From contig JABLXB010000003.1 of assembly GCA_013178305.1 (NCBI GenBank), positions 1 to 64,000 on the forward strand: 64,000 nt of DNA, in the 5' to 3' direction. Below are positions 1,955 to 23,718 of this stretch, one piece after another. The first letter of the stretch is position 1; the number at the start of each line of letters is the position of its first letter. Under the pieces are notes generated by a model. The model was not told the origin of the DNA and did not search any database. It was given only the letters and a program-made list of their open reading frames with translations. This DNA comes from Bacillota bacterium. Its GTDB lineage: Bacteria; Bacillota; Sulfobacillia; JABLXB01. A program made the translations under genes and the position numbers.

Positions 1955-2064
1955 CTTACTCCAAACCGCCCTGCGACTGTCTTCGATGATCTTTCCGGCG
2001 TAACGTTCTCGCGACAGGAACCCACTGGCAAGGCCGGTTGCAGCGTGTTAGTATCGTTCATGTG

Positions 2065-3774
2065 ATGAACAGAACCGTGACGAAGTCCTGTATCATGGTC
2101 GTGGCTGTGGTTGCGCTCAGCATTTCGGGCTGGTCTCCGCCACAACCGGACCATGCGATTGCCGCGACGTTCGCCGGCGCCGGCTTTATGGGGTCGGATA
2201 CCACCGGCGAAGTGCTGATCTACCAGGATGGCATGCTGCTTGCGTCGGGCAACCCAGACTTCAGTCGAGACGTGAAAGTCATCAGGCGGCTCGCGAGCGG
2301 TAAGCGCCTGGTGAACTATCCGGCCGGGTATCAGGTAGACATGCCGGAAGACATGGAGATGGATTTCCGTTATTCACCGGCCTATGTCCGGGCGTCCAGC
2401 TCCACGCTGGATATCAAGATCTCCAGGGAACACTCCCCGTACGAGGATGTGGAGATGTACCTCAGGGATTACCCAAACCGCTTCATCGCCCGAGAAGACT
2501 ACGCGGGCTACCGGCAGGTCAATGGTATTCACCTCATCGATGATACCTGGCTGGTTATCGGCGGGCACCGTACTCGAATCATCAGTTTTCGACGTGATGC
2601 CGGCGCCGGTAGCCCGGAGACTCAGAACGAATACCTCCTGGCATACGTCTTAGCCCCACGTCGGCAGGACTTCCACGCTCTTTTCTTCAGGACCAGTTCT
2701 CTGGCCACGCAACGTTCCACGATTTTCGGGGTCCTGGAGTCTTTTACGTTAATCGAGCCCAGGGGCACCGAACGGTTCAACCTGGACCTGCACCCGGTTC
2801 CTGGCAAGTGGAATGCGGAAACGCAAGCGCTCTATGACCGCATAGCCAATGGCAAGCAGTTCATGTGGGGCATCTTCTCCCCCTGGGCTCTCACGAAACC
2901 GGAGGAATACCAGAGGATAGCCTCCATTGAGGACAGACTGGGCTTCAATTTCCCGATTATCCTCCACTACCTTTATACAGGTGACGACTTTCCCACCGAA
3001 GGAATGCAAAAGGCGTTCAATCGTGGCCAGGTGGTTGAGCTCACGATGCAGGTGGCAACGTTTGACAATGGGAACGCCAACGTCAGGAATGCCAATTTCG
3101 ATCTTCTGGACGGCCGGCTCGACGAGGCAATCCGGAAGTTTGCCCGCAGCGCGAAGGCCTTTGGGCACCCGTTCCTGTTCCGTCTCAACAACGAGATGAA
3201 TACGGACTGGTCTCAGTACAGTGGGGTGTGTACACTGAACGATCCAGACATCTACATTAAGGTCTGGCAACGGGTCTACAGGATCTTTGACGAGGAAGGG
3301 GTCGACAACGCGATCTGGGTCTTCAATCCCAACGGTCGAAGCTTCCCCCCCATGAACTGGAATCACGAAGTCTGCTATTATCCTGGGAATGGCCACGTGC
3401 ACCTGATCGGGCTAACCGGCTACAACACGGGCGATTACTACCATTCGGTTACGGGAGAAAACTGGGCCTCTTTTCGCCAGATCTACGATCCGCTTGTAGC
3501 AGAGTACAGGGCGTTGTATGGCCGGTTCCCCTGGCTGATTGGCGAGTTTGCCAGTAGTTCAGTTGGGGGCGACAAAGCACAATGGATTCGAGACATGTTC
3601 ATGGTCCTGCCCGATTACCCCGAAATCAAGGCGGCGGTGTGGTGGTCATACGCAGACTTCGACTACCGACCCGGCAAGGAAGGCGCACCCGCTCGGAGAT
3701 ACTGGCTTGATGAGAAGGACGAGTACCTGGAGGTTTTTCGGGAGGGACTGCGAAGGCAGGGGCTGCTGAGGTAA
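2065..3774 (+). CDS. secreted glycoside hydrolase, family GH26-like
   Basis: The protein has about 569 residues and an N-terminal signal peptide (basic MNRTVTK start, then a hydrophobic stretch), so it is exported. The first ~230 residues form a domain I do not recognise. The C-terminal ~300 residues read as a GH26 (beta/alpha)8 barrel. FRLNNEMN holds the likely acid/base Glu near residue 377, and WLIGEFASS holds the likely nucleophile Glu near residue 494, with WWSYADFDY after it. GH26 members are endo-beta-mannanases or related beta-glucanases acting on extracellular polysaccharide. An upstream in-frame TTG at 2038 would add nine residues before the signal peptide and is less likely. It is monocistronic as far as can be seen. 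Confidence 0.75.
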   Translation: MNRTVTKSCIMVVAVVALSISGWSPPQPDHAIAATFAGAGFMGSDTTGEVLIYQDGMLLASGNPDFSRDVKVIRRLASGKRLVNYPAGYQVDMPEDMEMDFRYSPAYVRASSSTLDIKISREHSPYEDVEMYLRDYPNRFIAREDYAGYRQVNGIHLIDDTWLVIGGHRTRIISFRRDAGAGSPETQNEYLLAYVLAPRRQDFHALFFRTSSLATQRSTIFGVLESFTLIEPRGTERFNLDLHPVPGKWNAETQALYDRIANGKQFMWGIFSPWALTKPEEYQRIASIEDRLGFNFPIILHYLYTGDDFPTEGMQKAFNRGQVVELTMQVATFDNGNANVRNANFDLLDGRLDEAIRKFARSAKAFGHPFLFRLNNEMNTDWSQYSGVCTLNDPDIYIKVWQRVYRIFDEEGVDNAIWVFNPNGRSFPPMNWNHEVCYYPGNGHVHLIGLTGYNTGDYYHSVTGENWASFRQIYDPLVAEYRALYGRFPWLIGEFASSSVGGDKAQWIRDMFMVLPDYPEIKAAVWWSYADFDYRPGKEGAPARRYWLDEKDEYLEVFREGLRRQGLLR

Positions 3775-3931: not shown

Positions 3932-4050
3932 ATGTCGAAAGTCATAACTCCTGAGCAAGGGCCGCAGCGTTAATCAAGGATGGAGTCACCATATGGGTCA
4001 AGCACGATGGGGTTGGCTGGATGGCCCGAAACATTTGCTTGCTTTCGTAG
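3932..4050 (+). pseudogene. decayed N-terminus of a CoA-transferase-like gene
   Basis: An ATG at 3932 has a good ribosome site (GAGGAG) and begins MSKVITPEQ. After a one-base shift the sequence continues AAALIKDGVTIWV before a stop at 4048. This resembles the N-terminus of acetate/3-oxoacid CoA-transferases (MSKV...EEAA.LIKDGDT). Only about 40 codons remain. The surrounding DNA (3775-3930) is less GC-rich and holds no other gene that I can see. Confidence 0.4.
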
Positions 4051-4060
4051 TAATCCGTGA

Positions 4061-4172
4061 TATGCTTAACACGCAATCCTAGAAGGAAATGGTTGAAGCG
4101 CAGAGGGCCTTGCATCTCCCAGTCCTTTTCCGATTGTAAATCGCTCCAACCGAGAGCAGGAGGACTGAGAAG
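4061..4172 (+). promoter_or_regulatory. promoter and structured leader of RRM gene 1
   Basis: TATGCT at 4061 serves as a -10 box, with TTGCTT at 4039 as a possible -35. The ~105-base leader contains CAGTCCT (4120-4126), exactly complementary to AGGACTG (4161-4167), which overlaps the AGGAGG ribosome site of the gene. The same pairing occurs in the second copy at 5549-5596, and the single-stranded segment ATTGTAAA is also shared. The pairing could hide the ribosome site and give translational control. Confidence 0.55.
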
Positions 4173-4442
4173 ATGACAAAGACCCTTTATGTTGGCAACC
4201 TACCGTTTACGTGCGAGGATCGAGACCTCGCGGCAGCTTTCGGTTCCGCTGTTGAGGTCGTTTCTGCCCGCGTGGTGACAGACAGGGAGACCGGTAGGTC
4301 ACGTGGTTTCGGATTCGTTGAGATACCTGCCGATAAGGTGGAAGCCACCGTTTCGAGTTTCAACGGAACGGACTTGGGCGGTCGGCAGATCGTAGTAAAC
4401 GAGGCCAGGGAACGGAGCGAGCGCCCGAGCAGGCGCTGGTAG
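4173..4442 (+). CDS. RRM-domain RNA-binding protein, copy 1
   Basis: An 89-residue single RNA-recognition-motif protein. RNP2 (LYVGNLPF) is at residues 4-11 and RNP1 (RGFGFVEI) is near residue 48, each with the aromatic residues that stack on RNA. The C-terminal tail is Arg-rich (ERSERPSRRW). Bacterial single-RRM proteins of this length bind single-stranded RNA and are often cold- or stress-induced; the target here is unknown. The ATG is preceded by AGGAGG at 11 bases. A near-identical paralogue lies 1.16 kb downstream with the same leader and terminator architecture. The two flank a gene on the other strand. Confidence 0.9.
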   Translation: MTKTLYVGNLPFTCEDRDLAAAFGSAVEVVSARVVTDRETGRSRGFGFVEIPADKVEATVSSFNGTDLGGRQIVVNEARERSERPSRRW

Positions 4443-4463
4443 CAAATCTGAGATAGCGCACCT

Positions 4464-4500
4464 GAGGCAGCCCCCAGGGCCCGGGGCTGCCTTGGCATTT
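4464..4500 (+). terminator. intrinsic terminator of RRM gene 1
   Basis: GGCAGCCCC (4466-4474) pairs with GGGGCTGCC (4483-4491), extended by A-T and G-T pairs, followed by a weak T-containing tail. The same hairpin follows the second copy. Confidence 0.65.
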
Positions 4501-4548
4501 CTGGAGCCAGCGGGCGAAACCACCCCATGCCGGGGCCGGCGGGCGTCC

Positions 4549-5370
4549 TCAGTGGAATCCCCGGTAGAGCCCGGCCCTGAACCCCTTCAGGAAGTGTCTG
4601 CAGTGCTCATCCCTGCCCAGCAGCATCGCCGACGCGCGAACAGCCGCGGTCATTTGCTCGTCCAGTTCAAGCAACAGCAGGTCGGCTCCCCACGTCACGC
4701 ACATCACGGTCAACGTCTGATCCACGAGGCCCGTTGCAGGCAAGCCGAACGACACGTTGTCGGGAGCGCAGGATATACGCATGCCCAATTTTGCTTTCGC
4801 GAGCAACAGGGTGTCCCTGAATGTGAGGATATTCTTGCGGTCAGTTCCGATCGGCATGACAAGTGGGTCAAGGAAGATCCGCTCTGCGGGAATACCGGCG
4901 GATAGGGCATGCTCTACGATCTTCGCCCCTGCTGACACCCTTGCATCGGGGGTAGGGGGGACCCCGCTTTCGTCGAGCATTAGCCCCACCAGGAAAGCGT
5001 CGTACCTGCTCGCAAGGGCCGTCATGGCACGGAGCCTATCAGGTTCCGCCGTTGCTGAGTCGACGAAAGGTGGGCCACACGAATCGTCGTACGCAAGTAA
5101 CCCCGATTCCATTGCGACCGGGTTCGGCGTGTCTATCCACACCGGGAGCCGGGTGGACTGCTGGACGGTCTTGACCAGCCAGGCCACGTCCTTTTCCTCG
5201 CTGTCGACCCTGGTCCCCGCATTTACTCCTATGGCACAGGCACCGAGATCGCGTTGGTAAATGGCGAGATCTGCTATGGACTTCGAATCCCTGGAATCAA
5301 CCATCCGGTCTATCCCTGGAAGCGACGTGTTTATCCTACCTCCAACGATGATCACCGGGAACCTCCTCAT
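4549..5370 (-). CDS. pterin-binding (DHPS-like) methyltetrahydrofolate methyltransferase
   Basis: The product of about 273 residues has the TIM-barrel pattern of the pterin-binding enzyme family, which includes dihydropteroate synthase and methyltetrahydrofolate:corrinoid methyltransferases such as AcsE/MtgA/MtrH-like proteins. GGRINTS comes near the start, where the family has the GERIN(T/P)T motif. It is followed by a conserved Asn (GVNAG), WIDTPNP, FLDPLVMPIGT and CAPDNVSFGLP. These point to a methyl transfer between methyl-tetrahydrofolate and a corrinoid protein rather than folate synthesis. No corrinoid protein gene is adjacent. I chose ATG 5370 because the family starts here; an upstream extension to 5436 adds 22 unrelated residues. 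The gene lies inverted between the two RRM genes. Confidence 0.75.
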   Translation of the reverse strand: MRRFPVIIVGGRINTSLPGIDRMVDSRDSKSIADLAIYQRDLGACAIGVNAGTRVDSEEKDVAWLVKTVQQSTRLPVWIDTPNPVAMESGLLAYDDSCGPPFVDSATAEPDRLRAMTALASRYDAFLVGLMLDESGVPPTPDARVSAGAKIVEHALSAGIPAERIFLDPLVMPIGTDRKNILTFRDTLLLAKAKLGMRISCAPDNVSFGLPATGLVDQTLTVMCVTWGADLLLLELDEQMTAAVRASAMLLGRDEHCRHFLKGFRAGLYRGFH

Positions 5371-5489
5371 CAGCGATGCCTCTCGCGTTGTGATCTTCAC
5401 CGCGGATTGCCTGCTCCCCTCCCGCGCTCTGGGCAACGCTTCAGGAGACGCTCAGCAAAGTGGGCGGTGCTTTTGGGCGACAGCTGTGA

Positions 5490-5601
5490 TATACTGGTAA
5501 GGCAATCTAGAAGGAACATGGTTGACGTGCAGCGGGCCCTGCATCTTCCAGTCCTTGTATGATTGTAAACTACCGCAAGTGTCAAGTGGAGGACTGAGAA
5601 G
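5490..5601 (+). promoter_or_regulatory. promoter and structured leader of RRM gene 2
   Basis: TATACT (5490-5495) is a good -10 box. The leader aligns with that of copy 1 through most of its length (shared GCAATC, TAGAAGGAA, GGTTGA, GGGCC, TGCATCT, CAGTCCTT and GATTGTAAA). CAGTCCT (5549-5555) is complementary to AGGACTG (5590-5596), which overlaps the GGAGGA ribosome site. Confidence 0.55.
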
Positions 5602-5871
5602 ATGACCAAGACCCTTTATGTTGGCAACCTGCCGTTCTCGTGTGGAGACCAGGATCTTGCCGCAGCTTTTGCCTCCGTTATCGAAGTCGTTTCGGCTCGT
5701 GTTGTGACCGATAGGGAGACCGGAAGATCGCGCGGTTTCGGTTTCGTCGAGGTTCCTGACGACAAGGCGGAGCTCGCCGTTTCGAGCTTCAACGGAGCCG
5801 AACTCGGCGGCCGGCAGATCGTAGTAAACGAGGCCAGGGAACGGACTGAGCGCCCGAAAAAGCGCTGGTAG
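5602..5871 (+). CDS. RRM-domain RNA-binding protein, copy 2
   Basis: An 89-residue single-RRM protein, very similar to the copy at 4173 (RNP2 LYVGNLPF, RNP1 RGFGFVEV, tail ERTERPKKRW). Differences cluster in the first helix (CGDQD versus CEDRD) and in the tail, so both copies seem under selection to remain functional RNA binders. It has the same SD-adjacent leader pairing and the same type of terminator as copy 1. Such paralogous pairs could divide labour by temperature or growth phase; nothing in the sequence decides this. Confidence 0.9.
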   Translation: MTKTLYVGNLPFSCGDQDLAAAFASVIEVVSARVVTDRETGRSRGFGFVEVPDDKAELAVSSFNGAELGGRQIVVNEARERTERPKKRW

Positions 5872-5892
5872 CACGCTAGGGTAATCTACGCT

Positions 5893-5930
5893 GAGGCAGC
5901 CCTGAGGCCCGGGGTTGCCTCGTTTTGTTC
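5893..5930 (+). terminator. intrinsic terminator of RRM gene 2
   Basis: GAGGCAGCCC (5893-5902) pairs with GGGGTTGCCTC (5911-5921), followed by GTTTTGTT. Confidence 0.75.
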
Positions 5931-23485: not shown

Positions 23486-23642
23486 GGGGTGAGTCAGAGG
23501 CGCGGCGTTCATGAGTAACCGTGGGTGAGCAGGGCGAGTACGCTTTCGAGCGTCAACCCGTGAGCGAAAGGGACCGCCGCCGAAGTCCGGCCGCCAGGCC
23601 GGGCTGGGGTCGCAGCCGAACAGGTGCGACACTGTCACCTGG
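23486..23642 (+). promoter_or_regulatory. lysine riboswitch (L-box)
   Basis: Conserved L-box segments appear in order: AGAGGCGCGGCG, ATGAGTAA, GTGAGCGAAAGGGACCGCCG (23560 region), CCGAAG, GGGCTGGGG and GACACTGTCACC. P1 pairs GGTGA (23488-23492) with TCACC (23635-23639). The 3' P1 strand CACCTGG (23636-23642) can alternatively pair with CCAGGTG (23657-23663). The downstream gene is lysA, matching the ligand. Confidence 0.92.
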
Positions 23643-23718
23643 ATCTGCCCGATGGTCCAGGTGGAGCGCTACTCACAGGGCGGGGAAGGGAGGGTATTGC
23701 GGTAAGTCGAGGCTTTCG

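Follow-up and report, generated by a model that had tools for sequence, protein, structure and literature searches.

The leaders of two RRM genes in the window, the whole 64,000-nucleotide stretch of DNA analysed here, probably each act as a translational control element that masks the ribosome site (SD) of the gene behind it, whatever the trigger may be. We regard the element as probably real because its pairing is kept in three relatives and recurs with other letters. Sequence comparison also led beyond the earlier note on this DNA: within the class, predicted SD-masking leaders are enriched among RRM genes of a single type, and the leaders also carry a putative promoter, a uORF of 14-19 codons and a possible pairing of the 5' end with the ATTGTAAA loop.

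Leader architecture and conservation

The two RRM genes encode proteins that are 82% identical. Each is preceded by a leader of about 100 nt, and copy 1 and copy 2 agree at 73 of 100 positions with no gaps, which bears out the long alignable leaders described in the earlier note. The exact complementarity that it had reported between CAGTCCT (4120, 5549) and AGGACTG (4161, 5590) was found at these positions, overlapping the SD GGAGG. This anti-SD helix is called P2 below, a small hairpin P1, and the complementarity between the 5' end and the loop P0. The features are listed by position.

2038-3774, + strand: protein matching glycosyl hydrolase family 26, upstream of the RRM pair
4057-4066, + strand: copy 1 extended -10 promoter-like box GTGATATGCT, with TTGCTT 16 nt farther upstream (4039-4044); putative promoter
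4073-4078, + strand: copy 1 GCAATC, putative 5' end; P0 complement of GATTGT at 4132-4137
4089-4139, + strand: copy 1 uORF MVEAQRALHLPVLFRL with its own SD-like AGAAGG; uORF conserved in four of five leaders
4098-4115, + strand: copy 1 small hairpin P1 (GCGCAG / TTGCAT), from comparison of five leaders
4120-4126, + strand: copy 1 left arm CAGTCCT of P2, from complementarity, folding and conservation
4132-4139, + strand: copy 1 loop motif GATTGTAA (the ATTGTAAA of the earlier note); P0 partner and uORF stop
4159-4167, + strand: copy 1 SD GGAGG (4159-4163) and right arm AGGACTG (4161-4167), invariant in five leaders
4173-4442, + strand: RRM gene 1, 89 aa; Pfam RRM_1, 54.7 bits
4549-5436, - strand: pterin-binding-domain gene, between RRM genes 1 and 2
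5486-5495, + strand: copy 2 extended -10 promoter-like box GTGATATACT, from conservation; putative promoter
5502-5507, + strand: copy 2 GCAATC, putative 5' end; P0 with 5561-5566
5518-5562, + strand: copy 2 uORF MVDVQRALHLPVLV, from ORF reading and leader comparison
5527-5544, + strand: copy 2 small hairpin P1 (GTGCAG / CTGCAT), from comparison of five leaders
5549-5555, + strand: copy 2 left arm CAGTCCT of P2, continuing into CTTC at 5545-5548, from folding and the duplex test
5561-5568, + strand: copy 2 loop motif GATTGTAA, P0 partner, from leader comparison
5588-5596, + strand: copy 2 SD GGAGG (5588-5592) and right arm AGGACTG (5590-5596), exactly complementary and conserved
5602-5871, + strand: RRM gene 2, 89 aa; Pfam RRM_1, 63.3 bits

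Two riboswitches, a TPP riboswitch (701-808, - strand) and a lysine riboswitch (23486-23679, + strand), also lie in the window, both scoring well over the Rfam gathering cut-off.

Protein-level searching of 121 related genomes revealed RRM orthologues with 70-77% identity in three of them: G002, which belongs to the same family, and G028 and G046, which represent a second family of this class. All of them are preceded by this leader, giving a total of five genes in four species; in the synteny check, none of the ORFs tested at these three loci encoded a pterin-binding protein. The 7-bp helix P2 is standard-paired in all five leaders, and an A to G change in the left arm of G046 retains the pair as G-U. 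The proportion of invariant columns was 13/14 in the stem vs 45/93 in the remainder of the leader (Fisher p=0.003); the loop's 3' half has a single invariant column among 19. The pairing is thus kept although the flanks differ, as the earlier note had claimed from the two copies alone; that note had named homologous leaders lacking the CAGTCCT/AGGACTG pairing as evidence against its proposal, and SD masking was found in 5/5. Both-sided changes in P2 were absent among these five leaders, and therefore covariation speaks neither for nor against the helix within this family. P1 was paired in 93% of cells across the five leaders, with one-sided changes only.

A covariance-model search, as suggested in the earlier note, recovered the five loci, all with P2, and yielded no further copies in 154 genomes of the class and 398 of the phylum under strict filters. 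In these searches the leader accompanied every member of its RRM type and turned up nowhere else in the class. A pattern scan of an 84,980-species contig collection gave only two matches, both in genomes already known, and a scan of viral sequences gave none.

Folding against shuffles showed that the 65 nt before the start reach -17.5 kcal/mol in copy 1 (z -2.0) and -19.5 kcal/mol in copy 2 (z -3.1), the latter equalled by 0 of 200 shuffles; the full 120-nt leaders were no more stable than shuffles (z about -1). The predicted helix of copy 2 reaches CTTCCAGTCCTT/GGAGGACTG-A-GAAG. In the duplex test against shuffled upstream sequence, p was 0.005-0.01 for copy 2 and 0.06-0.2 for copy 1 alone, which falls short of clear significance. 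We count P2 as more than chance because it is conserved across the orthologous leaders.

Upstream of the helix, each of the five homologous leaders has a GTGATATACT-like box at the same position and constant distance, which would place the RNA start near GCAATC. A uORF with its own SD is present in each of the five, with the pattern M-x-[ED]-x-Q-R-A-L-H-L-P-V-L; it reads MDEMQRALRLPVLVRL in G002 and MGEMHRALHLPVLV in G028, and a one-base deletion in G046 breaks the frame after codon 10, so that its end becomes MDEVQRALHLRSLYDCRLW. The left arm of P2 forms the uORF codons PVL in 4/5 leaders, G046 being the exception. Within codons 5-13 the first codon position differs at two sites, and of 27 possible changes of this kind those two alone are synonymous, a chance of about 1 in 351 that was calculated post hoc. 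The 5'-terminal GCARTC is complementary to the loop GATTGY, with six standard pairs in 5/5 leaders and two one-sided changes that preserve pairing. P0 and the anti-SD helix together would form a pseudoknot. The duplex test for P0 was weak within this family (p=0.02), and it did not support P0 as a class-wide feature (WxV mean z -0.29, p=0.10). The earlier note had placed a shared ATTGTAAA between the arms; this holds for both copies of the window, and across species only GATTG is invariant. The motif can be explained either by the uORF or by the complementarity between 5' end and loop.

Ribosome-site pairing in other RRM leaders

Leaders were also taken from about 130 further RRM genes in the class. 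A selection of these was folded, and dinucleotide shuffles served as background for testing how well the ribosome site pairs with the upstream segment at 30-80 nt. Among control genes, 12/154 reached p<0.05 (mean z -0.21). The corresponding number was 15 of 38 leader clusters (mean z -1.40) for RRM genes of the WxV/C type, defined by GNLPWxV or GNLP(F/Y)xC, a subfamily that was named after its leaders had been seen. The difference from controls was significant (Mann-Whitney 4.9e-7; Fisher 7e-6), also with the leaders of our own family removed (11/33, Fisher p=3e-4). Other RRM genes of the class showed no enrichment (7/65, mean z -0.25), and SD masking as a trait of all RRM genes of the class was rejected, the enrichment being limited to the WxV/C type. 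Because this subfamily had been defined after inspection of the leaders, further leaders were fetched: four of six sequence-novel WxV leaders scored as SD-masking, and two of 17 others.

The letters of the arms are unrelated between families, for example CTTCGTGC/GCACGAAG vs GTCTCC..TGCACTtCC/GGAGTGCAGAGAC. In leader family A both partners have changed at two of the pairs (G-C to A-U in L202; G-U to U-G in three), and its covariation score was reached by 1 of 500 shuffles, a figure that is not a probability, the sequences being related. These few compensatory changes support a predicted helix in family A. On an RRM tree of 86 columns the SD-masking label was clustered, although these columns resolve little and near-copies help the clustering, and the clade of the genes studied here was not adjacent to the WxV clade.

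Other conserved leaders of the class, including L010, L012, L021, L022, L028 and their relatives (e.g., GGTGCCTGGGTCCCTGGCCAGGTGCC), carry no significant SD masking. Genome G089 (L013, L049, L051, L053, L078, L080, L084, L088) has 11 RRM genes, several of them in tandem, each with a leader of its own.

The SD-masking arrangement was not general among RRM leaders of other Bacillota classes. Three of these leaders (L144, L145 and L159) scored strongly for complementarity of the ribosome site with an upstream stretch, and their complementary arms, TTGTAATCAC/GTGATTTTACAA, TCACCGTG/CACGGTGA and GATTCACCTC/GAGGTGAAT, lie upstream of a motif, GYAHATAATACT. This strong motif is common to most of 21 leaders from other classes and was noted in L143-L151, L153, L159, L162, L164 and L165, about 40-65 nt before the start, with an EM log-likelihood of 57.9 vs 26-30 for shuffled sequences. 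Its role may be that of a -10 promoter box or of an RNA motif; in the former case the upstream arm in L144, L145 and L159 would be untranscribed. An identity of ATTGTAAA with GYAHATAATACT was rejected, as our own leaders score like control genes. The window leaders lack GYAHATAATACT.

Possible triggers and rival explanations

In the mechanism that we propose, transcription would begin close to GCAATC, which is conserved, and the 3' part of the leader, its second half, would fold into P2, which would hold the SD of the RRM gene. The default state would then be closed, and RRM translation would hinge on some event in trans by which P2 is opened or stabilised. Our tentative first choice for this event is a feedback in which the RRM protein acts on the leader of its own gene. 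Such feedback fits an SD-masking architecture that tracks an RRM type; a motif search of the leaders established no RRM binding motif common to them. A second, rather doubtful candidate is a ribosome passing or stalling on the overlapping uORF. In such translation attenuation, erm-like or by simple coupling, a ribosome on the last uORF codons would cover CAGTCCT and free the RRM site. The uORF with its SD in all five leaders, the PVL codons of the left arm in four of them and the post hoc coding signal are consistent with this, yet the helix is kept in G046, where the frame is broken, and conserved uORFs were not found in other leader families of the class.

SD-masking control as such is argued against by the lack of both-sided changes in our own five leaders and by full-length leaders that fold like shuffles, and further by the duplex result for copy 1 alone, by the naming of the subfamily after its leaders had been seen and by the place of our own clade in the RRM tree. 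The first two observations, in leaders so closely related and of such unremarkable overall stability, suit a static or incidental stem, whose likeness between copies would reflect recent duplication and descent and whose helix would set a low constant translation or do nothing. We consider this unlikely, given that sequence-unrelated SD-sequestering helices recur in the WxV/C subfamily and not in other RRM genes, and that family A shows compensatory changes. An RNA thermometer, in which heat would melt P2 or cold would alter the fold to expose the ribosome site, appears most improbable. The SD does sit in a helix, and cyanobacterial RRM genes are described, in the excerpted text of the source, as cold-regulated with conserved 5' UTR boxes (PMC9333190), but from 10 to 65 C the calculated SD accessibility did not pass through a melting transition: it rose from 0.00 to 0.17 in copy 1 and from 0.12 to 0.27 in copy 2, the unpaired probability at 65 C was at most 0.45 across the five leaders with no clear transition, and accessibility was below 0.1 in related leaders. 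The temperature-sensitive switch suggested in the earlier note is therefore unsupported, the SD being calculated as mostly closed up to 65 C, whereas its central proposal, that the leaders mask their own ribosome sites, is well supported by conservation in 5/5 leaders and by recurrence in a defined RRM subfamily. Returning to feedback by the RRM protein, a broader scheme could be imagined in which a fast-evolving feedback leader spans the class, with an SD-occluding helix and a 5'-end pseudoknot (GCARUC with GAUUGY), a uORF added in this lineage and a leader code for each RRM paralogue; we think this scheme improbable.

Comparison with known systems

Neither the leader element of the window nor any of 15 leader loci matched Rfam at gathering level, and a word search of the open-access literature returned nothing alike and no account of bacterial RRM genes with SD-masking leaders, in agreement with the earlier note, which was aware of no described element with this sequence. 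Ribosomal-protein and other autogenous leaders sequester the SD, and like the leaders studied here they belong to genes of RNA-binding proteins and can hide their own SD; the window leaders differ in resembling no known target RNA and in having no Rfam match. The leader peptide of ermC acts by translation attenuation, and ermC-type leaders likewise have a short uORF whose last codons form one arm of an SD-sequestering helix. In the window leaders, however, the uORF encodes a candidate leader peptide only, with the frame broken in one of five homologues. The fourU and ROSE elements are RNA thermometers in which the SD pairs with an upstream stretch, as it would here, but the window leaders match no Rfam family and, by calculation, do not melt at physiological temperatures.

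Cyanobacterial RRM genes, described in part in PMC9333190, also encode small single-RRM proteins and have conserved 5' leaders that are thought to control expression. They differ, as compared by description, in belonging to another phylum and in carrying cold-response boxes, and the excerpted account mentions no SD-sequestering helix or uORF (PMC9333190). For Porphyromonas and Bacteroides, the discussion of RRM proteins concerns their trans targets (PMC12119571). Small single-RRM proteins occur in many bacteria, and in the literature searched the control of their synthesis is little described outside cyanobacteria. If it is true that in a Bacillota class one RRM subfamily retains SD masking in its leaders even as the leader sequences diverge, these leaders would be natural candidate RNA targets of their own proteins, and a single purified protein and short RNAs would suffice to test what bacterial RRM proteins bind.
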